From assembly GCA_036376135.1 (NCBI GenBank), contig DASVAW010000083.1:1-34121 (forward strand): a stretch of 34,121 nucleotides of DNA, given 5' to 3'. The stretch's first letter is position 1, and each line of letters starts with the position of its first letter. This document shows, one piece after another, positions 3,468 through 28,456 of the stretch. The notes beneath the pieces are model-generated. The model was not told where the DNA came from and ran no database searches. It saw nothing but the letters and a program-made list of their open reading frames with translations. The position numbers and the translations under genes were made by a program. This DNA comes from Candidatus Polarisedimenticolaceae bacterium. GTDB taxonomy: Bacteria; Acidobacteriota; Polarisedimenticolia; Polarisedimenticolales; DASRJG01.

Positions 3468-4538
3468 TCAGCAAATCCTCGGCAGCTGCTCCCCGGAGAG
3501 GAGGTCCACGACGCGGTCGCCGCCGACGCGACTGCGCAGCACGACCTGCCCCGCGGGCCCGTCGGTCACCTCCCCCACGATCGCCGATTGCCCTCCGAAC
3601 TCGTCGGCGCACATCACGGCGAGCGCCTCCTCCGCGCGCTCCCGCGCGACGATCGCGAGGCACTTCCCTTCGTTCGCGACGTAGAGCGGGTCGAACCCGA
3701 GGATCTCGCACGCGCCCCGAACCTCGTCCCGGACCGGAATCCGGCGCTCGTCGAGCCGGATCCCCACGCGGGCGGACTTGGCGATCTCGTTCATCGCCGA
3801 GGCGACCCCGCCGCGGGTCGGATCCCGAAGGACGTGGACGTCGTCGCCGAGCGCATCGAGCAGGCGGGCGACGAGCCGGTGCAGGGGCGCCGAGTCGGTG
3901 ACGATCGCCGTCTCGAACTCCAGTCCCTCGCGCACCGAGAGGATCGCGATCCCGTGGTCGGCGATCGGCCCGTTGATCAGGACGACGTCGCCCGGCCGCG
4001 CGCGCGCGGGATCGATCGAGATCCCCTTCGGCACGAGCCCGACCCCCGAGGTGTTCACGAACAGGCCGTCCCCCTTCCCGCGGTCGACGACCTTGGTGTC
4101 CCCCGTGGCGATGGGCACCCCCGCCGCCGCCGCCGCGGAACCCATCGAGCGGACGACGCGCCACAGGTCTTCCATGCGCAGCCCCTCCTCGACGATGAAG
4201 CCGCAGGAGAGGGCGAGCGGAGACGCCCCGCACATCGCGAGGTCGTTCACGGTCCCGTGAACGGCGAGGGAGCCGATGTCCCCTCCGGGGAAGAACATCG
4301 GACTCACCACGTACGAGTCGGTGGAGAACGCCAGGCGCGCGCCGCCGAGGTCGAGGACCGCGCCGTCGTGGAGCCGCGCGAGCGCGGGGTTGTCGAAGGC
4401 CTCGAGGAACATCCCCTCGACGAGGCGCTGGGAGAAGCGCCCCCCGCCCCCGTGCGCGAGGAGCACGTGCTCGTGTTCGGTCGCGGGGATGGGGCAGGCC
4501 AGGTGGCGAAGGGCCTCGCCCGGGTGCCGCTCGCTCAT
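3468..4538 (-). CDS. hypE: Hydrogenase maturation protein HypE (carbamoyl dehydratase)
   Basis: A 356-aa protein that dehydrates the carbamoyl group received from HypF on its C-terminal cysteine. The resulting thiocyanate supplies the cyanide ligands of the [NiFe] site. The protein ends PRIC, the conserved C-terminus carrying the acceptor Cys356. The AIR-synthase-like ATPase fold shows in the GDTKVV and LRDPTRGGV segments. The ATG at 4538 overlaps the hypD stop as ATGA, which fixes the start and indicates translational coupling. It is the last maturation gene in the hyp operon and acts in the cytoplasm with HypC and HypD. Confidence 0.98.
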
Positions 4539-5626
4539 GAACGGGCCCTCGCGTAGGAGAAGTACGCCGAACACGCCCCCTCGGTCGAGACCATCGGCGC
4601 GCCGAGCGGGTGATCGGGGGTGCAGCGCGTGCCGAACGCGGAGCACTCCGGAGGCTTCTTGCGTCCCTGGAGGATCAGCCCCGCGATGCACTCGGCGTTC
4701 TCGTCGGCTCGGACCGACTCGACGTCGAAACGCGTCACCGCGTCGAACGCCGCGTACGCGGGTCGCAGCTTGTACCCGCTCGCGGGGATGAAGCCGACGC
4801 CGCGCCAGGCGCGGTCTCCGACCTCGAAGACCTCGTGGACCGTCTCGATCGCGTGGCGGTTCCCCTCGCGCTGCACGGTCCGGGCGTACTGGTTCTCGAC
4901 GCCGTGGCGCCCCTCCTCGAGGGCGACGACCACGCGGTAGACCCCCTCGAGCAGGTCGAGCGGCTCGAACCCCGTGACGACGATCGGGATGCGGTACTTC
5001 TCCGCGATCGGCTCGTACTCCTCGAATCCCATCACGGTGCAGACGTGCCCCGCGGCGAGAAAGCCCTGGACGACGTTCCCGGGTGCGGAGAGGATCGCCT
5101 CCATCGCCGGCGGCACGAGGACGTGGGAGCACAGGACCGAGAAATTCGCGACGCCGGAGAGCTTCGCGACCCGCACCGCCATCGCGTTCGCCGGTGCGGT
5201 CGTCTCGAACCCCACCGCGAAGAAGACGACCTGCCGGTCCGGGTGCTTGCGCGCGAGCTCGACGGCGTCGAGCGGCGAGTAGACGACGCGCACGTCTCCA
5301 CCCGACGCTTTCACCCGAAGCAGGTCGTCGCCGGTCCCGGGCACGCGGAGCATGTCGCCGAAGGAGGTAAAGATCACCTCGGGCCGGCGCGCGATCGCGA
5401 CGGCGCGATCGATCATCTCGACCGGCGTCACGCAGACGGGGCACCCGGGGCCGTGGACGAGCGTGACCTGCTCCGGGAGCATCCGGTCGAGACCGAACTT
5501 CATGAACGTGTGCGTCTGGCCGCCGCAGATCTCCATCAGCGTCCAGGGGCGCGTGACCTTCCTGCGCAGCAGCTCGAGGAAGCGCTTCGCCTCCGCCTCG
5601 CCGCGGTATTCGTCGACGTACTTCAT
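4535..5626 (-). CDS. hypD: Hydrogenase maturation protein HypD
   Basis: A 363-aa [4Fe-4S] scaffold protein on which, with HypC, the Fe(CN)2CO unit is assembled. Conserved elements seen are EICGGQTH (Cys34), GPGCPVC (Cys62 and Cys65) and GFETTAP. A C-terminal cysteine-rich block ([24 protein letters not shown]) includes the cluster ligands. Length is normal for the family. The ATG at 5626 overlaps the end of hypC as ATGA, and its own stop overlaps hypE, so hypC-hypD-hypE are tightly coupled. Confidence 0.98.
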
Positions 5627-5880
5627 GGACGCTTCTCCCCGAACTCCTCGAGCTCCCCCATCTCCTCGAGGAACTTGAAGACCTCCCCCGCTTCCTTCTC
5701 GTCGATGCGGCTGATGGCGAAGCCGACGTGGACGAGGACGTAGTCGCCCACCTTCGCTTCGGGGACGTAGGCGAGGCAGATGTCCTTCACGATTCCCGCG
5801 AACGACACACGGCCCATCGGCATCGTGTCGACCGTCGCGGGGTCGATGGAGACGACTTTTCCCGGAACGCCGAGGCACAT
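5623..5880 (-). CDS. hypC: Hydrogenase maturation chaperone HypC
   Basis: An 85-aa chaperone that binds the iron centre with HypD and then the apo-large subunit. The N-terminus MCLGVPG carries the essential Cys2, exposed after Met removal, and His51 lies in the family segment YVLVHVGFA. The C-terminus is acidic, as is common in HypC. The start ATG at 5880 lies 4 nt after the hypF stop, and the stop overlaps hypD. This is a complete, ordinary member of the HypC/HupF family. Confidence 0.98.
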
Positions 5881-5884
5881 GGCG

Positions 5885-8185
5885 TCAGACCTCCTGCAGG
5901 CGCCGGGCGGCGACGACCGCCTGACCCAACGCGAGACCGCCGTCGTTCGGCGGGACGTGTTTGTGGAGCAGGATCTCGAACCCTTCCGCTTCGAGCGCCC
6001 GCGCGGCCCGCTCGGCGAGGGTGCGGTTCTGGAAGCAGCCTCCGGTGAGGGCGACGCGCGGTTCGGCCACGGCGCGGGCGACCTCGACGATCGCCGCGAC
6101 GAGAGCGGCGTGGAAGCGGGAGGCGACGACCCGGGCCTCCGCGCCCGCGGCGACGTCACGGACGATCTCCGCCACGAGCGGCCGCCAGTCGAGCTCGAGG
6201 CGGCCGTCGCCCGACACGACCGGAAGCGCGTAGGGCCGCGACGCGACGTCGGTCGCCGCGGACTCGAGGAGCATCGCGGCCTGGCCCTCGAACGCGCTGC
6301 GCTGGCGGATCCCGGCCAGCGCCGCGACTGCGTCGAACAGCCGGCCCATGCTCGAGGTGGTGGGCGTGTGAAGCCCGCGCTCGAGCTGACGCGTGAGCAG
6401 CCGCCGTTCGGCCTCGGTGAAGTCCGTGATCGTCGGCGGAGCGGGGTCTCCCAGCGCCCAGAGCAGCGCGAACGCCACCCGCCGGGGCTCGCGCGCGGCG
6501 GCGTCTCCCCCCGGGAGCGGGAAGGGACGCAGCGACGCGACGCGACGGTACCCCGCGGCGTCTCCCAGCAGGAACTCCCCCCCCCAGATCGTCCCGTCGT
6601 CGCCCAGGCCGGTTCCGTCCCAGACGACGCCGAGGGCGCGACCGTCGACGCCGTTCTCGGCGAGACACGACGCCAGGTGGGCGTGGTGGTGCTGGACCGC
6701 GAAGACGGGAACCGACGGCAGGCGCCCGGCCGGCGTCGCCGCCTCCCGCGCCCAGCGCGAGGAGGCGTAGTCGGGGTGGAGGTCGCACGCGATCGCTTCC
6801 GGGCGGACGTCCCAGAGCCGCAGGAAGTCGTCCGCGCAGCGTTCGAACGCCGCGAGCGCCTGAGGCGTGTCGAGATCGCCGACGTGTTGCCCGAGGAAGA
6901 CGCGAGGGCCGAGCGCGAGCGCCACCGCGTTCTTCTGGTGCGCACCGACGGCGAGCACCGCCGGAAGGGAGCTCGGAACGGCGACGGGGAGCGGGGCGAA
7001 TCCTCTCGCGCGGCGCAGAACGCGCGTCTCGCCCCTCAGCACCCACGCGACGCTGTCGTCGGCGTGCCGCGCGATCGGCCGGTCATGGACGAGGAAGACG
7101 TCGGCGATCCCGCGGAGGCGGTCGAGCGCCTCGCTCTCCTCGGTGCAAATCGGTTCATCGCTGAGGTTTCCGCTCGTCGCGACGACCGGGGCTTCGTACG
7201 CGCGAAGGAGCAGGTGGTGCATCGGCGTCGCGGGGAGCATGACCCCCAGCGTCGTCATGCCCGGCGCCACGTTGCGGGCCACCCGGGCCGACGCGTTGCG
7301 ACGCAGCAGGAGGATCGGGGCGGCGGCGCCCGCGAGGGCGGCTTCCGCCGCGGCGTCGGTTTCGGCGAGCTCCCGCACGGCGTCGAGGTCCCGGGCCATC
7401 AGGGCGAACGGCTTCTCCTCGCGGCGCTTGCGCTCGCGCAGGCGGCCGACGACCCCTTCGTCCGCCGCGTCGCACAGGAGCTGGAAGCCGCCGAGTCCCT
7501 TCACCGCCACGATCCGCCCGTCGCGCAAGGCGCCCGCCGCGGCGTCGATCGCGCCGCCTCCGGCGGCGAGCGCGCGGCCGTCGGCGTCCCGGAGCACGAG
7601 CGTCGGCCCGCACGCGGGGCAGGCCACGGGCTGCGCGTGGAACCGGCGGTCGGCGGGGTCCTCGTATTCGCGACGGCAGTCGGGGCACAGCGCGAACGCC
7701 GCCATCGTGGTCCGGGGGCGGTCGTACGGCAGCTCGCGAACGATCGTGAACCTCGGCCCGCACCGGGTGCAGTTGGTGAAGGCGTAGCGGTGGCGACGCC
7801 CCGCGGGGTCGAGCACCTCGTCGAGACAGTCGGGACAGGTCGCGAGGTCGGCGAGCACCGCCACGGTCTTCGTGCCGACCTGCTCGCTGGTCCGGATCGA
7901 GAAGGCGGAGCCCCCGTCGACCTCGACCCAGGTCGCCGCGATCGACTCGATGCGCGCGTTCGGCGGCCCGCCGGCGGTCAGGTCGCGCTCGAACGCCTCG
8001 ATCGCGGATGCGGGCCCCTCGACCTCGACGAACAGGCCCCGGGCGTCGTTCTGCACCCAGCCGGACAGACCGCGCAGGGTCGCCTCGCGGTAGACCCAGG
8101 GACGGAATCCCACCCCCTGGACCGCGCCGCACACCTCGAATCGCCTGCGGCGGGAGACGGGCGCGGCGGCGGGGGCTCGCGTCAC
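5885..8185 (-). CDS. hypF: Carbamoyltransferase HypF
   Basis: A 766-aa enzyme that converts carbamoyl phosphate to carbamoyl-AMP and passes the carbamoyl group to HypE. Domains in order are an N-terminal acylphosphatase (GAVQGVGFRPWVYR, about residues 20-33), two zinc-finger-like units with CxxC pairs (about 115-200), a YrdC-like nucleotide-binding domain (around GLGGFQLLCDA), and a Kae1-like C-terminal part (QHHHAHLASC, WDGTGLGDDG, GGCFQNR). The start is a GTG at 8185, 7 nt after the hypB stop. No strong Shine-Dalgarno is visible, so translation probably depends on coupling to hypB. Length is normal and all domains look intact. Confidence 0.98.
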   Translation of the reverse strand: MTRAPAAAPVSRRRRFEVCGAVQGVGFRPWVYREATLRGLSGWVQNDARGLFVEVEGPASAIEAFERDLTAGGPPNARIESIAATWVEVDGGSAFSIRTSEQVGTKTVAVLADLATCPDCLDEVLDPAGRRHRYAFTNCTRCGPRFTIVRELPYDRPRTTMAAFALCPDCRREYEDPADRRFHAQPVACPACGPTLVLRDADGRALAAGGGAIDAAAGALRDGRIVAVKGLGGFQLLCDAADEGVVGRLRERKRREEKPFALMARDLDAVRELAETDAAAEAALAGAAAPILLLRRNASARVARNVAPGMTTLGVMLPATPMHHLLLRAYEAPVVATSGNLSDEPICTEESEALDRLRGIADVFLVHDRPIARHADDSVAWVLRGETRVLRRARGFAPLPVAVPSSLPAVLAVGAHQKNAVALALGPRVFLGQHVGDLDTPQALAAFERCADDFLRLWDVRPEAIACDLHPDYASSRWAREAATPAGRLPSVPVFAVQHHHAHLASCLAENGVDGRALGVVWDGTGLGDDGTIWGGEFLLGDAAGYRRVASLRPFPLPGGDAAAREPRRVAFALLWALGDPAPPTITDFTEAERRLLTRQLERGLHTPTTSSMGRLFDAVAALAGIRQRSAFEGQAAMLLESAATDVASRPYALPVVSGDGRLELDWRPLVAEIVRDVAAGAEARVVASRFHAALVAAIVEVARAVAEPRVALTGGCFQNRTLAERAARALEAEGFEILLHKHVPPNDGGLALGQAVVAARRLQEV

Positions 8186-8192
8186 GGCCGAC

Positions 8193-8936
8193 TCAGGAGG
8201 GGTGGACGTGAGGGTGCGGACGGAGGTGGGCGTGCGCGCGGGGCTTGACGAGCAGCTCCTCCCGCCGCGCCTCGAGCCACTTCAGCCAGCGCTCGAATCC
8301 CTCGCCGGTGCGCGCGGAGACGACGAACACCTTCGGGTCGGGCATCACGCGACGGATCGCGTCCTCGATCGCGGCGACGTCCACCTCGAGGTGCGGAACG
8401 AGGTCGTGTTTGGTGATCAGCACGAGGTCGGCCTTGTGGAACATCGTCGGGTACTTGAGGGGCTTGTCCTCCCCTTCCGTCACCGACAGCGCGACCACGT
8501 TGAACGCCTGTCCGAGGTCGTACACCGCCGGGCAGACGAGGTTTCCGACGTTCTCGATGAAGAGGTACTCGACGTCGCGCCACGGGAACTGGTGGAGCGC
8601 GTCGTGGACCATCCTCGCGTCGAGGTGGCAGGCGGTCCCCGTCGTGATCGCCAGCGACGGGATCCCCGCGCGGTTCAGCCGGAGGGCGTCGCGGTCGGTC
8701 GCCAGGTCGGCGGTGATCGCGCCCAGCCGGAAACGTTGCGTGAACGCGGTCGCGGTGCGCTCGAGGACGGCCGTCTTCCCCGCTCCCGGCGAGCCCATCA
8801 GGTTGATCGCGAGCACGCCGCCTTCGGCGAAGTGCGCGCGGTTGTGCGCGGCGGTCCGGTCGTTCTCGACGAGAATCTTCTGCTGGATCTCGACGGGAAC
8901 GAGTTCGTGGTCGCCGCAGCCGCAGCTGTCGCACAT
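8193..8936 (-). CDS. hypB: Nickel-insertion GTPase HypB with C-terminal histidine tail
   Basis: A 247-aa GTPase that, with HypA, delivers nickel to the hydrogenase large subunit. The N-terminus has a CxxCxC nickel site (Cys2, Cys5, Cys7). The P-loop GSPGAGKT spans 48-55, and the metal pair Cys103-His104 sits in the G domain. Unusually, the histidine-rich segment is not in the N-terminal region but forms the extreme C-terminus, where five His occur in the last 14 residues (HAHLRPHPHVHPS). The ATG at 8936 follows the hypA stop by 2 nt. It may serve nickel storage as well as insertion. Confidence 0.97.
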   Translation of the reverse strand: MCDSCGCGDHELVPVEIQQKILVENDRTAAHNRAHFAEGGVLAINLMGSPGAGKTAVLERTATAFTQRFRLGAITADLATDRDALRLNRAGIPSLAITTGTACHLDARMVHDALHQFPWRDVEYLFIENVGNLVCPAVYDLGQAFNVVALSVTEGEDKPLKYPTMFHKADLVLITKHDLVPHLEVDVAAIEDAIRRVMPDPKVFVVSARTGEGFERWLKWLEARREELLVKPRAHAHLRPHPHVHPS

Positions 8937-8938
8937 GG

Positions 8939-9280
8939 TCAGTCCACCTCCATCTCGAGCCGTTCGAGGACGATCTCGTCCCCCGCGATCAGTCGGGCCC
9001 CGACCGCGCAGTCGGGACATTGCAGGAAGTCCCCGCGGTGCACCTCGCGCGAACATTGCGGGCAACGGTAACGCGCCGGGACCCGGACGATCTCGAGGGC
9101 CGCCCCTTTTGCCACCGTCGGCTCGCGGTAGACGTCGAAGGCGGTCGCGAGGAGCTCGGCCTCGACCCCGGCCAATTCGCCCAGCCGCAGGGTGACCTTC
9201 TGCACCGAGGTCGCCTTGTGGGCGCGCGCCTGGGATTCGACCTGCTCGAGCAGGGCCTGGACGATCGAGGTTTCGTGCAT
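8939..9280 (-). CDS. hypA: Nickel chaperone HypA
   Basis: A 113-aa protein that receives nickel and, with HypB, inserts it into the large subunit. It starts MHE, as the family requires; His2 and the N-terminal amine bind nickel. Zinc is held by Cys73, Cys76, Cys88 and Cys91 (CPQC and CPDC). I chose the ATG at 9280 for this reason; an upstream in-frame start would bury His2 and add 12 residues. GGAAAGG lies just upstream as a weak ribosome site. It is the first gene of the hyp operon; the 188 bp before it shows no promoter I trust. Confidence 0.97.
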   Translation of the reverse strand: MHETSIVQALLEQVESQARAHKATSVQKVTLRLGELAGVEAELLATAFDVYREPTVAKGAALEIVRVPARYRCPQCSREVHRGDFLQCPDCAVGARLIAGDEIVLERLEMEVD

Positions 9281-9468
9281 CGGGGCCTTTCCGTATCGGA
9301 CCCCGAGATTTTGCACGATCCGTACCGCCCCGCCGACGACCTAAATCACGCTCCTGGGCGCCTTTCCGGCGCAATTCGTGCGTGGCCGCAGCCGCCGGCC
9401 GAAAGAATCTCGCTGCGCCGCGGCATCGGCCCACATGGCGATTCCGGCCGGACGCAACGATTGCGGTG

Positions 9469-10380
9469 TCACGGGGCCGGGAATCGGACCCGCACGCCGA
9501 TGCACGCGCCCGGGAGCGACTCCACTCGCGTCTCCTCGACGCGGACCCCGGCCTCGGCCAGGGTTCGCCGACACTCCGGCCAGAGGCTCCTCGGCACGAT
9601 GACCTCCAGGATCCCCGGTCGGGACTCCGGTTGCGGCCTCGCACCCTGCCGTCGGAGCGCATCCTCGAGGGGACCACGAGCGATCGCGACGTCCGACGAC
9701 ACTTCGACGAACTCCACGACGCCGCAAGGTTCGTCGCCGAGGCCGGCACCGGCGCGCGCGGCGAGGTTCTCGTCGCGCTCGGGCGTCGCTTCCCGTGCCG
9801 AGGACGCCTTGGCCGTCGGGCGGGGCGCGGTGGTTTCCTCTCGCCGGAAGGAGTCGAGGACGCGCTCCCGCACCTCGGGCTCGAGCGCCGGGGCGTGCTT
9901 CGCCTCGGCGTCCCTCGCGGCGCCTTCCGTCGCGATCACCTCGGGCTCCGGCAGCGGCTTCGGCTTCGGCTTCGGCTTCCGCAGCGGCGGCGGCGGCGGT
10001 GTCGGCGGCGGCGGCGCGGCCTCGGGGGATCGCACCTCGGCGCTCGGAGCCTGCGGTCTGGGTGCTTCGGGCCCCTGGAGGTACCACGCGGTGGCGACGA
10101 GCCCCGCCGCGGCGAGCGAGGCCGCGGCGCCGAGCCACGCGCGACGCCCGGACGCGGGGGGGAGGATCGAGGACGCGATGCGCTCGCGAAGTCCCTCCGG
10201 AAGCTCCGGAGCGCCCAGCTGCGCCGATGCGTCGACGATCCGGCGAAGGTCCTCGAGGGTCGCGCGGCAGCTCTCGCACCCGGCGAGGTGAGCCTCGACG
10301 CGCGCGCGCTCCTCCGCCGTCGCCTCGCCGTCCAGGTGCGCGGAGAGGAGCTCGACCGGGAGGTGATCGGTCGCGCTCAT
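9469..10380 (-). CDS. Transmembrane anti-sigma factor (zinc-binding, ZAS type) with Pro/Lys-rich spacer
   Basis: A 303-aa protein. The cytoplasmic N-terminus has the HxxxCxxC anti-sigma motif (His31, Cys35, Cys38). One membrane helix lies at about residues 82-101. Outside the membrane comes a proline-rich stretch (about 104-148) with PPPPTPPPPP and KPKPKPKP runs like the TonB spacer. A further C-terminal domain of about 110 residues contains three cysteines. The ATG at 10380 overlaps the sigma-factor stop (ATGA), so the two are made together, as for ECF pairs in which the membrane protein sequesters the sigma factor until a signal arrives. The C-terminal sensor domain is not one I recognise. 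Confidence 0.9.
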   Translation of the reverse strand: MSATDHLPVELLSAHLDGEATAEERARVEAHLAGCESCRATLEDLRRIVDASAQLGAPELPEGLRERIASSILPPASGRRAWLGAAASLAAAGLVATAWYLQGPEAPRPQAPSAEVRSPEAAPPPPTPPPPPLRKPKPKPKPLPEPEVIATEGAARDAEAKHAPALEPEVRERVLDSFRREETTAPRPTAKASSAREATPERDENLAARAGAGLGDEPCGVVEFVEVSSDVAIARGPLEDALRRQGARPQPESRPGILEVIVPRSLWPECRRTLAEAGVRVEETRVESLPGACIGVRVRFPAP

Positions 10381-18118: not shown

Positions 18119-18148
18119 TTGACGCGCCGCGGAGGCGTGCGATACGTT
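18119..18148 (+). promoter_or_regulatory. Sigma-70-type promoter of the Fur-family regulator
   Basis: TTGACG (18119-18124) and TACGTT (18143-18148) are 18 bp apart; shifting the -10 by one base gives ATACGT with 17 bp. The operator at 18160-18176 would lie at about +5 to +21, a good position for repression. Confidence 0.6.
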
Positions 18149-18159
18149 CCCGGCGTGGG

Positions 18160-18176
18160 TTGCGAACGGTTCGCAA
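18160..18176 (+). promoter_or_regulatory. Fur-family operator, copy 1 (TTGCGAA-N3-TTCGCAA)
   Basis: A perfect 7-3-7 inverted repeat (centre CGG), extended to 8-bp arms by flanking G and C. It lies between the promoter and the ribosome site of the Fur-family gene. An identical-arm copy precedes the porin gene at 18683. Its overall layout, TTGC ends in a 17-bp palindrome, resembles the published Nur (nickel) box more than the AT-rich Fur box. Confidence 0.75.
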
Positions 18177-18192
18177 CTGAGTCGGAGGCCCC

Positions 18193-18651
18193 GTGAAGGG
18201 CTCGATCGGAACGCTGGCGGAGCGGATGCGGGTCAAGGGCCTGCGGATGACCGGCCAGCGGCAGCTGCTCGTCGAGGTCCTCGAGGAGGCGACGGAGCAC
18301 CTGGATGCCGAGGCGCTCTACAAGCGCGCCAAGGTAAAGGACCCGACGATCCATCGGGCGACGATCTACCGGACGCTCAACAAGCTCAAGAAGCTCGGCC
18401 TCGTCGACGAGCTCGACCTGATGCACGTCAGCGGCGAGCGGCACTACTACGAGATCCGGCCCTCGTCGCTGCACATCCACCTCGTCTGCACGAAGTGCAA
18501 AGGGGTCCTCGAGCCCGAGGGTCCGTTCTGGGAGAGCATCAAGCGCCGCGTCCAGGAGGAGAGCGGCTTCCGGCCCGAGGTCGTGCGCATCGAGATGGCC
18601 GGCCTGTGCGCCGCGTGCCAGCACCCATCCCGCCGGGCGCACAGCGCATGA
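18193..18651 (+). CDS. Fur-family metal- or peroxide-responsive transcription regulator
   Basis: A 152-aa protein with an N-terminal winged-helix domain (about 8-88; recognition region around HRATIYRTLNKL at 54-65) and a C-terminal dimerisation domain. Structural zinc cysteines are Cys99, Cys102 (CTKC) and Cys139, Cys142 (CAAC). Further likely metal ligands are His36, His84, His94 and His96. The GTG start at 18193 is preceded by GGAGG. Palindromes TTGCGAA-N3-TTCGCAA lie at its own promoter and before the porin, so autoregulation and control of the downstream operon are likely. Which metal it senses (Fe, Ni, Zn, Mn) or whether it is PerR-like cannot be decided here. Confidence 0.93.
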   Translation: MKGSIGTLAERMRVKGLRMTGQRQLLVEVLEEATEHLDAEALYKRAKVKDPTIHRATIYRTLNKLKKLGLVDELDLMHVSGERHYYEIRPSSLHIHLVCTKCKGVLEPEGPFWESIKRRVQEESGFRPEVVRIEMAGLCAACQHPSRRAHSA

Positions 18652-18682
18652 CCGATCGCCTCGCCTCTTTTTTTGCCCCTTC

Positions 18683-18699
18683 TTGCGAATCTTTCGCAA
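18683..18699 (+). promoter_or_regulatory. Fur-family operator, copy 2 (TTGCGAA-N3-TTCGCAA), porin operon
   Basis: The arms are identical to copy 1, with the centre TCT. It sits 31 bp after the regulator's stop and directly abuts a -10-like TTAGAT (18700-18705), so a bound repressor would cover the core promoter of the porin operon. Confidence 0.75.
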
Positions 18700-18705
18700 T
18701 TAGAT
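18700..18705 (+). promoter_or_regulatory. Probable -10 element (TTAGAT) of the porin operon
   Basis: TTAGAT, or shifted by one base TAGATT, follows the operator directly and lies 53 nt before the porin ATG, leaving a leader of about 45 nt with an AGGAGG ribosome site. No convincing -35 is seen, which would fit a promoter whose upstream half is embedded in the operator. Confidence 0.4.
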
Positions 18706-18758
18706 TTCCGTGCCTGTCCGGTCGGAGCCCCCGGCCGCGACGAAGGCAGGAGGCCCCC

Positions 18759-20159
18759 ATGTCACGTTTCCTGAAGTCCCTCCTCCTTGGTGTCGCCGTC
18801 GCACTCACCTCGATTCCGGCGGCGGTGGCCGACGACGCCAAGACCGCCGAGCTCGAGCAGAAGGTGAAGGCCCTCGAGCAGGCCCTCGCGGACCTGCGGG
18901 CCCGATCGGGGGACACCCCCGAGATCGACGAGATCCGCCGGCAGATCGAGGTGCTCACCCAGGAGATCGAGAATCTCAGGATTGGCGACGCGGCGCCGTC
19001 CGCCGACGCGACCGCCGGCGGCAAGTACGGACTCGCGCCCAGCGCCTCGAAGGTCTACGGCGTGAAGCGCGGCGTGTCCATCGGCGGCTACGGCGAGATG
19101 ATCTACGAGAATCCGGACTCCACGCGGGAGGACGGCACGGCGTCGGGCCGCACGGATCAGCTCGACTTCGCCCGGGCGATCCTCTACTTCGGGTACAAGT
19201 TCAACGACCGCATCCTCTTCAACTCCGAGATCGAGTACGAACACGCCACGACCGGCGAAGGCGACGAGGAGAAAGGCGAGGTGTCGGTCGAGTTCGCCTA
19301 CCTCGACTTCCTCTTCCGCGATGCGATCAACGTCCGCACCGGGTTGATGCTCGTTCCGATGGGGTTCGTCAACGAGATGCACGAGGGACCGACCTTCCTC
19401 GGTGCCAAGCGCCCGCAGGTCGAGAACCGGATCATCCCGACGACCTGGCGCGAGAACGGCGTGGGCGTCTTCGGCGAGGCGGGCAAGGTCTCCTACCGTG
19501 CCTACCTCGTCACCGGGCTCGACGCGATCGAGGGCAGCTCTTCGGGCGCGGAAGGATTCCAGGCCTCGGGGATCCGCGACGGCCGGTCGGGCGGTTCGCA
19601 GTCGCCCGCGGAGGACTTCGCGCTCACCGGTCGGCTCGACGTCAAGCCGGTCGCCGGCCTCACCCTGGGCGGCGCCTTCTTCGCCGGAAACGCCGGCCAG
19701 GGCGAGACCGACGCCGAAGGGTCGATCGACGCGAAGACCACGCTTGTCGACCTCCACGCGGAGTACCGCTGGCGCGGGCTGCAGACGCGCCTGCTCTGGG
19801 TGAAGACGTCGATCGACGACGCCGCGAGGATCAACGCCGCGCAGGGGCTCACCGGCGCGGGTTCCGTGGGCGAGCGCCAGTACGGGATGTACGCGGAGGC
19901 GGGGTACGACGTCCTCGCCCACCGCGACGGCACGAAGCAGGCGCTGATCCCCTTCGTCCGCTACGAGCGCTTCAACACGCAGGACCGGGTCCCCGAGGGC
20001 TTCACCGCCGACCCGGCCAACGACGTAACGGTCACGACCGTCGGCGCGTCGTGGAAACCGATCCCGAACATCGCGATCAAGCTCGACTGGAACAAGTTCG
20101 AAAACGAGGCCCGCACCGGCGTCGACCAGGTCAACCTCGCCGTCGGCTACCTCTTCTGA
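18759..20159 (+). CDS. Outer-membrane porin (phosphate-selective porin O/P-like)
   Basis: A 466-aa protein with a signal peptide (cleavage expected after AVA at about residue 24). A short coiled-coil region follows (about 27-75, heptads of Leu/Ile with Glu/Lys), then a beta-barrel of about 390 residues that ends in phenylalanine (VGYLF), the usual outer-membrane sorting end. The barrel has alternating aromatic and polar strands like OprO/OprP-type porins, though the substrate cannot be inferred; the coiled coil may trimerise it. The ATG at 18759 has AGGAGG upstream. The Fur-type operator in front, and the FMN-binding and heme-like membrane genes behind it, suggest a metal-uptake setting. Confidence 0.87.
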   Translation: MSRFLKSLLLGVAVALTSIPAAVADDAKTAELEQKVKALEQALADLRARSGDTPEIDEIRRQIEVLTQEIENLRIGDAAPSADATAGGKYGLAPSASKVYGVKRGVSIGGYGEMIYENPDSTREDGTASGRTDQLDFARAILYFGYKFNDRILFNSEIEYEHATTGEGDEEKGEVSVEFAYLDFLFRDAINVRTGLMLVPMGFVNEMHEGPTFLGAKRPQVENRIIPTTWRENGVGVFGEAGKVSYRAYLVTGLDAIEGSSSGAEGFQASGIRDGRSGGSQSPAEDFALTGRLDVKPVAGLTLGGAFFAGNAGQGETDAEGSIDAKTTLVDLHAEYRWRGLQTRLLWVKTSIDDAARINAAQGLTGAGSVGERQYGMYAEAGYDVLAHRDGTKQALIPFVRYERFNTQDRVPEGFTADPANDVTVTTVGASWKPIPNIAIKLDWNKFENEARTGVDQVNLAVGYLF

Positions 20160-20173
20160 GACTCGGAGCGTTC

Positions 20174-20773
20174 ATGACTTCCTCCGCGCGTCCCGTTCCC
20201 GCGATGCAGGCCCCGCGCCGCCGGCCCCTCACGGCATTCGTCATGGCGGCGCTGCTCGCGGTCGCGGGGCGCGCGGAGGCAAAGGCCTTCCTCTCCCAGG
20301 AGCAGGCGCTCCGCCTCGCGTTCGGAGAGGGCGCCGCCAGCGAGAAGAAGACCGCGTACCTCACGCAGGCCCAGCTCGCCCGGGCCCGCGAGCTCGCGGG
20401 CCCGGGCGTCGAGGTCTCGTCCGCCCTCGTCACCCGCTACGAGGGCCGCCGCGACGGAGCCTCCCTCGGCTTCGCCTACTTCGACACGCACGTGGTCCGC
20501 ACGCTCCCGGAGACGCTGATGGTGGTCGTCGGTCCGGACGGCGCGATCGTCCGGGTGGACGTCGTGGTCTTCTCCGAGCCGGAGGACTACCTCCCCCGCG
20601 ACGCCTGGTTCGGGCAGTTCCGCGGCCGCCGGCTCGAGCGCGAGCTGTCGGTCAAGCGCGGCATCCACGGCATCACGGGAGCGACCCTTTCCGCCCAGGC
20701 GGCGACCGACGCCGCGCGACGGATCCTCGCGGTCCACCAGGCGCTCGCCGAGTCGCCGGGGACGGCCCGGTGA
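20174..20773 (+). CDS. Secreted FMN-binding domain protein
   Basis: A 199-aa protein with an N-terminal signal segment (hydrophobic about 20-33, cleavage near AEA-KA) and an FMN-binding domain. The flavin attachment motif is TGAT (168-171), so FMN would be bound to Thr171 by phosphoester linkage through ApbE. The usual Asp three residues before the motif is His165 here, which is unusual. The ATG at 20174 has CGGAG upstream, and its stop overlaps the next gene (GTGA). The family moves electrons outside the cytoplasm, as in RnfG and NqrC. With the four-helix membrane partner behind it, a membrane-to-periplasm electron relay is likely. Confidence 0.88.
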   Translation: MTSSARPVPAMQAPRRRPLTAFVMAALLAVAGRAEAKAFLSQEQALRLAFGEGAASEKKTAYLTQAQLARARELAGPGVEVSSALVTRYEGRRDGASLGFAYFDTHVVRTLPETLMVVVGPDGAIVRVDVVVFSEPEDYLPRDAWFGQFRGRRLERELSVKRGIHGITGATLSAQAATDAARRILAVHQALAESPGTAR

Positions 20774-21252
20774 ACCCCTTCGAGCGCTGGATGCTCTGGG
20801 GGTCGACGACGGTCGTCGGCCTTTCGGGGTTCGCGTTCCTCTGGCTCAAGCACGTCGCGGCCCCCGCGGACCCGTACGCGATCGTGAACCACCCGTGGCA
20901 GCCGTTCTTCCTGAAGCTGCACATCCTCTCCGCCCCGGTGCTCGTCTTCGCGGTGGGCGTCGTGTTCCTCCGGCACATCTGGCGGCAGTTCCGCTCCGGC
21001 CGCCCGGGAGGCCGTCGCACGGGCCTCACGGTGTTCGCCGTGATGGTGCCGATGGTCGCGTCCGGGTATCTGCTCCAGACCGTCGCCTCCCGCGACGCGC
21101 TGCGCTGGCTCGCCTGGATCCACATCGGCACCAGCACGGCGTACGTCCTCGCCATCGGGGGCCACCAGCTGCGCACCCTCGTCGTCGAGTCGGCCGCGCG
21201 CCGGGCGCGCGCCGCGTCCCGCCCGGCGGCCGAGGGCGAGCCCGCGGCCTGA
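20770..21252 (+). CDS. Four-helix membrane protein, possible di-heme b electron carrier (DUF4405-like)
   Basis: A 160-aa protein from a GTG overlapping the FMN gene's stop by 4 bp. Four hydrophobic helices lie at about 8-27, 46-70, 84-105 and 112-132. Helix 2 has His51 and His69, and helix 4 has His118 and His132. Helices 2 and 4 point the same way, so His51/His118 and His69/His132 could each hold a b-type heme on opposite sides of the membrane. This is the layout of cytochrome b561-like proteins. It would pass electrons from the quinone pool to the FMN protein. Heme binding is inferred, not proven. Confidence 0.78.
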   Translation: MNPFERWMLWGSTTVVGLSGFAFLWLKHVAAPADPYAIVNHPWQPFFLKLHILSAPVLVFAVGVVFLRHIWRQFRSGRPGGRRTGLTVFAVMVPMVASGYLLQTVASRDALRWLAWIHIGTSTAYVLAIGGHQLRTLVVESAARRARAASRPAAEGEPAA

Positions 21253-26704: not shown

Positions 26705-26803
26705 GTGACCCACTCCCCCCCCTCCGCCCTCCTTCACCCGGTCGATTTTTTCGCCCGCTCGGGGGCCGGGGGACGGTGCCTTGCGCGGGGACGACACCCT
26801 TGA
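26705..26803 (+). CDS. Possible leaderless 32-aa leader peptide before the lipid kinase
   Basis: A GTG at 26705 lies 8 nt after the -10 TATGCT and opens a 32-codon frame ending in TGA at 26801-26803. That TGA overlaps the TTG start of the lipid-kinase gene (TTGA), so the two could be translationally coupled. The peptide has no recognised motif, and its third-position GC (about 75%) is lower than that of typical genes here, so it may be non-coding. A rival reading is that the kinase starts upstream, for example at the in-frame ATG 26692 or GTG 26776. Confidence 0.3.
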   Translation: MTHSPPSALLHPVDFFARSGAGGRCLARGRHP

Positions 26804-27693
26804 CGCGCCTGGTCGTGAACCCTCGCGCCGCGCGCGGGAACGTGCGCGGCCGGCTGGCTCGACTCGCGCGGCTGGCCCGGGAGGCGGGGATCGAGATGAC
26901 CGTCCCGGAGTCGGCGCAGCGGCTGTGCGAAGCCGCGGTCGCCGCTGCGGCGGCGGGGTGCGAGCGGCTCCTCGTCGCGGGAGGCGACGGCACGCTTCAC
27001 TGGGCGATCCAGGGTCTTGCGGGAACTCCATGCGCGCTGGGGGTGATCCCGCTCGGCCGCGGCAACGACGTGGCCCGCGAGGTCGGCGCCCCGCTCGAGC
27101 TCGATACGGCGTTCGCGGCGGCGTTGCGCGGGCCGGTCAGGAGCATCGACCTCGGGAGCGACGGCAGACGCTGTTTCGCCACCGTCGGGGGCGTCGGCAT
27201 CGACGGCGCCGTCGTGCGCCGGGTCGATCGAGGCCTGCCGTGGTTCGGCGGCCCGCTCGCGTATCCCCTCGCCGTCGTCCGGGCGTTGCATGCGTACCGC
27301 CCGCCGAACCTGCGCCTCGAGACCGACGCGGGGACCTTCGAGGAGCGGGTCGTGCTGGCCTCCGCCGCCAACCTCCCGTGGTTCGGAGGAGGGATGCGGA
27401 TCGCCCCCGACGCGGTCGCCGACGACGGCGAACTCGACCTCGTCGTGGTCCGGGCGATCTCGCCGATTCGCCTGCTGCTGGTCTTTCCGAGGGTCTATGC
27501 AGGGCGGCACCTCACCCACCCGGCGGTTCGCGTGATCCGCACGCGGCGGGTGACGTACCGTTCCGACCGCGCCATGGACCTCCAGGCCGACGGGGAGATC
27601 CTGCGGCAGGTTCATGAGGATCCGGTGACCCTCAGGGTCCTCCCGCGGGCGCTCCGAGTCGTCGAATCCCGGGACGCGATTACACGTTCGTGA
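26800..27693 (+). CDS. Diacylglycerol/lipid kinase-like protein (DAGK catalytic domain)
   Basis: About 297 aa from the TTG at 26800, preceded by GGGGA 9 nt upstream and matching the family's usual N-terminus (TRLVVNPRAARG). The DAGK catalytic domain shows VNPRAARG (6-13), VAGGDGTLHWA (about 64-74) with the ATP-binding GGDGT, and PLGRGNDVA (about 85-93). This fits YegS/DgkB-type cytoplasmic lipid kinases that phosphorylate diacylglycerol or related lipids. Alternative starts are GTG 26776 and ATG 26692. The following 118 bp to the next gene hold a hairpin and a 16-bp palindrome described separately. Confidence 0.9.
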   Translation: MTRLVVNPRAARGNVRGRLARLARLAREAGIEMTVPESAQRLCEAAVAAAAAGCERLLVAGGDGTLHWAIQGLAGTPCALGVIPLGRGNDVAREVGAPLELDTAFAAALRGPVRSIDLGSDGRRCFATVGGVGIDGAVVRRVDRGLPWFGGPLAYPLAVVRALHAYRPPNLRLETDAGTFEERVVLASAANLPWFGGGMRIAPDAVADDGELDLVVVRAISPIRLLLVFPRVYAGRHLTHPAVRVIRTRRVTYRSDRAMDLQADGEILRQVHEDPVTLRVLPRALRVVESRDAITRS

Positions 27694-27751
27694 TGCCGTG
27701 CGGGCCTCTCGCAGCGGCCCCCCGACTTAAAAGCTGGTCCCGGCGGGCCGG

Positions 27752-27767
27752 GCGACGTATACGTCGC
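27752..27767 (+). repeat. Perfect 16-bp palindrome GCGACGTATACGTCGC
   Basis: A 16-bp perfect inverted repeat with a TATACG core, 44 bp upstream of the gene at 27812. A GC-rich 5-bp hairpin (CCCGG-N4-CCGGG) precedes it. It could be an operator for a dimeric regulator or part of a promoter, since TATACG resembles a -10. Confidence 0.5.
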
Positions 27768-27775
27768 GGTGGCAG

Positions 27776-27801
27776 CCCGCTTGCCTCCTCAGGCCGGCGG
27801 G
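27776..27801 (+). promoter_or_regulatory. mRNA leader hairpin touching the ribosome site of the next gene
   Basis: CCCGC (27776-27780) pairs with GCGGG (27797-27801), and an inner GCCT/AGGC stem caps it. The 3' arm runs into the Shine-Dalgarno GGAGGAAGG (27800-27808) of the gene at 27812, so folding could limit translation. I recognise no known riboswitch class. Confidence 0.35.
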
Positions 27802-27811
27802 AGGAAGGTGC

Positions 27812-28456
27812 ATGAAGCAGCGCATCGGGTTACTGCTGCTCTGCGGGATCGCGACGGGGGTCGCCTGGGGCGGCGCCCGTGCGATCGAGCCCCCGGCCGC
27901 AAAGCGCCTCCCGTTCGGTACGGCGCTGCCCGACGGACGCCTGGCCCCGACGGCCCTGTCGCTGGCGAAACTTCCCCATGCGGCGCCGGCCCCTTCCGGT
28001 GCATTCCTCTCCTCCTACCTTGCGCCCCAGATGGCGCGGCGCCTCGCACCGCTGGGCGAGTGGTTCGCGTCCCCCACGCTCGAGCGGGACACCCGCACCT
28101 CCGTGTCGTGGATCGAGATGCAGCAGAACGCCGAGCAGCAGGCGTGGAAGGCGACCCGGAAGGCCGTGCGGTCGTACCTGGGCGATCGCCTGGAGCGCGA
28201 GATCACGATCGCCGCGGGGCTCCCGTCGGGTTCGACCTCCACGAAAGGCGGGACGCGGCTGAGCGTGGGGATCGCGAGCCTCACCCCGCGCATCATCGTC
28301 GAGCGAGCCGCGGGGAGCGGATTCGTCCGGTTCGGCGTCGACGCCACCGGGGACGTGAACGTCGACTGGCGCCCGAAGCATGGCGAGACGCGCCTGGGCG
28401 CGACCTTCGACGCGGACTCCCGCCGCCTCGGCCTGAACCTCAACGGGCGGTTCTGA
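27812..28456 (+). CDS. Secreted protein of unknown function, possibly outer-membrane associated
   Basis: A 214-aa protein with a clear signal peptide (hydrophobic about 5-20, likely cleavage near residue 24 after ARA). The strong ribosome site GGAGGAAGG fixes the ATG. The last 80 residues show alternating hydrophobic/polar strands (for example RLSVGIASL, FVRFGVDA, TRLGATFD, LGLNLNGRF), and the protein ends in Phe, as outer-membrane barrels do. The strand number is small, so a short barrel or a beta-rich lipid-facing domain is possible. I do not recognise the family. Confidence 0.83.
   Translation: MKQRIGLLLLCGIATGVAWGGARAIEPPAAKRLPFGTALPDGRLAPTALSLAKLPHAAPAPSGAFLSSYLAPQMARRLAPLGEWFASPTLERDTRTSVSWIEMQQNAEQQAWKATRKAVRSYLGDRLEREITIAAGLPSGSTSTKGGTRLSVGIASLTPRIIVERAAGSGFVRFGVDATGDVNVDWRPKHGETRLGATFDADSRRLGLNLNGRF

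Follow-up and report, generated by a model that had tools for sequence, protein, structure and literature searches.

Palindromic operators around a fur-family gene of a Polarisedimenticolales bacterium probably belong to a small iron-type regulon

In the 34,121-nucleotide stretch of Candidatus Polarisedimenticolaceae DNA analysed here (contig DASVAW010000083.1, referred to below as the window), a gene of the Fur family is flanked by two palindromes with identical arms, and a nickel hydrogenase is encoded in the same window. The locus raises the question of which protein reads these palindromes and to which metal that protein responds. From sequence comparison, we consider it highly likely that the Fur-family protein whose gene they flank uses them as operators and is an iron-responsive, autoregulated Fur.

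The motif TTGCGAA-N3-TTCGCAA is present at positions 18160 to 18176 (TTGCGAACGGTTCGCAA) and 18683 to 18699 (TTGCGAATCTTTCGCAA), and no third copy was found on either strand of the window with up to two mismatches (shuffles predict 0.02). Pattern searches of the whole genome (4,376,251 bases, 97.6% complete) returned only these two palindromes at zero or one mismatch and a single additional match at two mismatches. Since base composition predicts 0.0015 exact copies per genome, the observation is real and far beyond chance. An earlier note on this DNA had reported the motif twice, with no other copy in the window, which both scans bear out.

The gene between the palindromes (18193 to 18651, forward strand) begins with GTG and encodes 152 amino acids containing a FUR domain (PF01475, 3.5e-24; 85.7 bits against a cut-off of 23.1). 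It is preceded by a putative promoter, TTGACG-N18-TACGTT (18119 to 18148, forward strand), read by eye and alike in G001 and G007, two other genomes of the order. The first putative operator (18160 to 18176, strandless), enclosed in a perfect palindrome (GTTGCGAACGGTTCGCAAC, 18159 to 18177), lies 11 nt past the fur -10 and 16 bp ahead of the GTG, covering the point where transcription is predicted to start; the same placement at fur is seen in G001, G007, G008 and G393. The second putative operator (18683 to 18699, strandless) begins 31 bp beyond the fur stop. One nucleotide past it starts TAGATT (18701 to 18706, forward strand), the putative -10 of the porin operon, recognized by comparing four genomes. 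This agrees with the earlier placement of one copy at the promoter of the regulator and the other after its gene, against the porin -10. The promoter scan called neither the fur nor the porin promoter, and the hexamers come from reading by eye and from cross-genome comparison.

The operon behind the second palindrome comprises three genes on the forward strand. The first (18759 to 20159) encodes an outer-membrane porin-like protein of 466 amino acids, with a weak Porin_O_P match (21.0 bits against a cut-off of 20.9) and counterparts of 54 to 59% identity in G001, G007 and G008. It is followed by an FMN_bind protein of 199 amino acids (20174 to 20773, PF04205), 47 to 49% identical to its counterparts in G007 and G008, whose GITGAT motif resembles ApbE flavinylation sites and may be read as one. 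Its gene overlaps by 4 bases the third one (20770 to 21252), coding for a membrane protein of 160 amino acids in which helices and several histidines can be read, with no Pfam match; identity is 44 to 47% to a G007 protein and 26% to a protein of an FTR1 operon in the more distant genome G387. A single-sequence model of this protein was of low quality (pLDDT 67.6) and yielded no match by fold, so that a role as a cytochrome b-like electron carrier, which is possible, is read only from the helices and histidines.

Orthologues of the regulator (59 to 71% identity) occur in six of the nine other genomes of the order, and the boxes beside them were located with tblastn. The order fur, porin, FMN_bind, membrane protein is kept together with both boxes in G001, G007 and G008, which represent other genera and where the box arms are conserved and the adjacent sequence is not. 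Ahead of the porin gene, a single nucleotide separates the box from a -10-like hexamer in all four genomes (TAGATT, TATTGA, TATAAG and TATAAG). Along with the FUR domain, these conserved footprints support the earlier interpretation of the palindromes as Fur-family operators at the promoter of the regulator itself and at the porin operon. Alternatively, the second palindrome might be no more than an RNA hairpin that terminates fur transcription, as a scan calls there a terminator-like stem of seven pairs followed by TTAGATTT. However, its arms are identical to those of the operator at the fur promoter, and what follows the stem is CTATTGAA in G001 and GTATAAGG and CTATAAGG in G007 and G008, respectively, with no T runs. 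These three genomes nevertheless retain the box 1 nt away from a -10, and the box is also found at promoters where no fur gene ends nearby. We regard a role of this site as a terminator alone as extremely improbable and continue to treat it as an operator.

A further site points to the function of the regulator. The next best match genome-wide, TAGCGAACGAGTCGCAA, lies between TTGACT-N17-TATTCT and the feoB reading frame, just past the -10, so the three best sites of the genome are those of fur, the porin operon and feoB. Searching this genome with the 12-base core TTGCGA-N5-TCGCAA gives a sole one-mismatch match, which precedes feoB; a random match would take that position with a chance of about 1e-4. 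At two mismatches the core yields 49 matches, which is background (52 in total against 56 in the control), and for that reason no list of weaker targets can be given for this genome. A matrix trained on the fur and porin sites only scored the feoB promoters of the genome of the window (G000), G001 and G003 at 19 to 23, with the next best sites at 4.7 or below; in these three promoters the box lies 8 to 12 nt past the -10, a placement thus kept in G001 and G003. The regulon announced in the earlier note therefore holds in a small sense, as three sites in this genome. In G001 and G003 the box at feoB, with its TTGAGAA and TCGCAA arms, resembles a hybrid between the half-sites of this motif and of a sister palindrome described below.

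Elsewhere in the order the boxes also stand at iron genes. G006 has two at feoA-feoB and four ahead of a siderophore-type TonB receptor, while in G005 three boxes precede a TonB receptor gene, behind which a ferric-type ABC permease and ATPase are encoded. These tandem boxes ahead of TonB receptors (three at L071, 8760 to 8943, and four at L072, 8955 to 9178) are spaced 64 to 94 bp apart. A gene for an iron-type substrate-binding protein, by sequence resemblance only, follows the fur of G005. The other two one-mismatch sites in the order fall inside open reading frames. No box was found near fur in G003, G005 and G006, indicating that autoregulation of fur is not universal, and no good feoB box was found in G005, G007 and G008. 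In the last two, feoB adjoins another Fur paralogue, and in G007 a sister palindrome, TTGAGATACTGTCTCAA, is located at the promoter of this second paralogue (L028).

Across the phylum, 24 of 396 genomes contain a close relative of the regulator (E value of 1e-30 or better), and those relatives in the genome collection that carry a name are MAGs of Acidobacteria. TTGCGACTCAGTCGCAA is located upstream of fur in G393, and the variant TTGCAA-N5-TTGCAA was found at or beside fur in G345, G387, G032 and G214. Altogether, a box lies beside fur in nine genomes from two distant groups: seven have it upstream (G000, G001, G007, G008, G393, G345 and G387) and two downstream (G032 and G214). No clear box was detected beside the fur orthologues of the class-level family f4. 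Among the f18 genomes, TTGCAA-N5-TTGCAA also precedes feoB in G032, and G387 has two boxes between fur and a divergent operon (L136, 183 to 4042) encoding a DUF6662 outer-membrane protein, FMN_bind, ApbE, a small membrane protein and an FTR1 iron permease, so that counterparts of the window operon keep the company of an iron permease elsewhere. Operators are thus located at feoB, feoAB, TonB receptors, a ferric-type ABC transporter and an FTR1 operon, all of them iron-uptake genes. The boxes might belong to a regulator encoded elsewhere, with fur as a mere target, given that we infer the link between the fur product and the box. Against this, the boxes track the fur orthologue in those nine genomes of two distant groups, and the genomes of the order that lack the orthologue (G002, G004 and G009) yield no more than scattered matches that are weak or intragenic. 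We find control by a protein from another locus very unlikely, and the product of the neighboring fur gene is the candidate considered below.

The predicted structure of the regulator (pLDDT 82) matches Fur structures with a probability of 1.00, and its best PDB sequence match is Fur of Magnetospirillum gryphiswaldense (4raz and 4rb1 to 4rb3, 1.9e-19). Regulatory metal site 1 of that protein is formed by H33, E81, H88, H90 and E101 (PMC4506495), and by alignment all five ligands are kept in the window regulator as H36, E87, H94, H96 and E107. Both CxxC pairs, the Zn(Cys)4 ligands, are kept as well. Site 2 (H87, D89, E108, H125 and Q111) is lost, with L93, I95 and V in place of H87, D89 and H125 and only E114 retained. 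On alignment grounds, this loss lowers the identity with the Magnetospirillum protein and would not lessen the case for a working iron-type repressor. The structural alignment was made without L004 and L006, which have a stop inside the given span. A 3-residue hinge insertion with H78 and H84 is conserved throughout the acidobacterial subfamily, and by alignment the two histidines are missing in Magnetospirillum Fur, Bacillus cereus Fur and Bacillus subtilis PerR.

The site 1 ligands cannot discriminate iron from manganese, and the same boxes could be read by a Mur with Mn(II) as co-repressor. Mur structures 5fd5 and 5fd6 rank near the top of the PDB searches (identity 34%, TM-score to the target of at best 0.83), and Mur is reported to bind an unusual operator, according to the title of Diaz-Mireles 2005 as cited in PMC3788343. 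However, the targets recovered so far, an incomplete list, are ferrous and ferric iron systems and include no mntH- or sit-like gene for Mn transport. Manganese as the metal is unlikely, if slightly less so than a regulator encoded elsewhere, and we retain iron as the probable co-repressor.

Nickel was the metal hinted at in the earlier note, which had noticed a Nur-like layout and a nickel hydrogenase nearby. The hydrogenase is there: genes for a NiFe hydrogenase large subunit (3 to 992) and a hydrogenase maturation protease (326 to 1513), both on the forward strand, and HypE-, HypC- and HypB/CobW-type genes on the reverse strand between 3.5 and 9.7 kb (3471 to 9749). The likeness to Nur was apt too, because the published Streptomyces consensus, tTGCaa-N5-ttGCAA (PMC3919588), equals TTGCAA-N5-TTGCAA; this operator is exact in the f18 relatives and G/C-substituted in the window, where TTGCGA-N5-TCGCAA shares its layout. 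One could then imagine Nur boxes controlling a porin operon that imports nickel for the hydrogenase of the window, and the two extra conserved hinge histidines, H78 and H84, could be counted in favor of this reading. Nur is characterized by a four-histidine planar M site and a separate Ni site; the window protein has H36, H94 and H96 together with E87/E107, and V at the H125 position. However, no box was found in the hydrogenase/hyp locus of the window, Nur of Streptomyces coelicolor (3eyy) is outranked by Fur and Mur structures both by sequence and by fold, and the targets conserved across genera are of the iron type (feoB, feoAB, siderophore-type TonB receptors, the ferric-type ABC transporter and the FTR1 operon), with neither nickel transport nor SOD genes among those recovered. 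The check proposed in the earlier note, searching the genome for copies of the motif that precede genes of metal transport, thus led to iron instead of nickel: the Fur-family operator with Nur-like layout stands, and the nickel assignment finds no support. With conserved iron-type targets and a box-free hydrogenase region, we favor iron and consider nickel control very improbable.

The genome also encodes other regulators of the Fur and DtxR families. The sole other Fur-family gene found is PerR-like and located on contig C165, directly upstream of a katG-type catalase-peroxidase gene (L036, 5381 to 8166). It is a different gene from the window regulator, for which no peroxide-stress targets such as katG were recovered. 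Three DtxR-family proteins are also encoded. A second feoB adjoins a DtxR-family gene (contig C158, about 26784 to 28051), so that these two families may split or share the control of iron here.

The boxes cover the transcription start at fur and feoB and occupy the -35/-10 spacer at the porin operon, positions that suggest repression. When Fe(II) is sufficient, Fur would occupy three boxes and block RNA polymerase: the one where its own transcription starts, so that it represses itself, the one in the spacer of the porin promoter and the weaker one just downstream of the feoB -10. When iron is short, Fur would leave these sites and the porin, the periplasmic flavoprotein, the membrane electron carrier and FeoB would be made; the first three would probably form a ferric-to-ferrous reduction system, with FeoB importing the resulting Fe(II). 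Binding of the protein to the sites, iron as co-repressor, a repressive effect and ferric reduction by the operon products are all put forward here as predicted. A small, iron-type regulon acting through a GC-adapted Fur box appears to be the best explanation of the sequence data.

The autoregulated iron circuit of the Fur family is known, and what varies here is the operator sequence, the subfamily devoid of site 2 and the porin/FMN_bind/membrane operon. With slightly less than even confidence, we suggest that a distinct Acidobacteriota Fur subfamily, without site 2 and with two extra hinge histidines, reads TTGC(G/A)A-N5-T(C/T)GCAA and controls an undescribed iron route, in which Fe(III), before import by FeoB or FTR1, would be reduced by three components: a porin or outer-membrane protein, a periplasmic protein flavinylated by ApbE and a small membrane electron carrier. 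We found no Acidobacteriota Fur box in the open literature searched, and papers beyond it could hold one. Neither TTGCGAA-N3-TTCGCAA nor TTGCAA-N5-TTGCAA qualifies as a canonical AT-rich Fur box, and standard AT-rich matrices would probably miss the GC-rich version. Once the motif is known, iron regulons can be mapped across this large phylum, most of which is uncultured. A further lesson is that TTGCAA-N5-TTGCAA need not imply nickel, as the same operator can precede iron genes.

Among known systems, Fur of M. gryphiswaldense is one of the best fold matches, has the five site 1 ligands in common and also has feoAB as a target (PMC3251581, PMC4506495). Unlike it, the window subfamily is missing three site 2 residues (H87, D89 and H125), adds the 3-residue hinge insertion (H78/H84) and the Cys4 site, and is associated with a GC-rich box, not GATAATGATAATCATTATC. 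Mur is similar in sequence (about 34% identity) and close in fold, and differs in that the targets here are iron genes. Nur of S. coelicolor belongs to the same family and has the same box layout, identical in the f18 version, although the genes found here are for iron uptake and the match to Nur in sequence and fold is below that to Fur. Finally, the FMN_bind protein of the window operon recalls flavinylated extracytosolic redox systems (ApbE/FMN_bind), and with its additional ApbE and FTR1 the operon of G387 resembles the P19/FTR1 clusters in which genes for FMN-binding proteins have been described (PMC8238504). In contrast to those systems, the operons described here include a porin or outer-membrane protein and a small non-Pfam membrane protein, under a local Fur.
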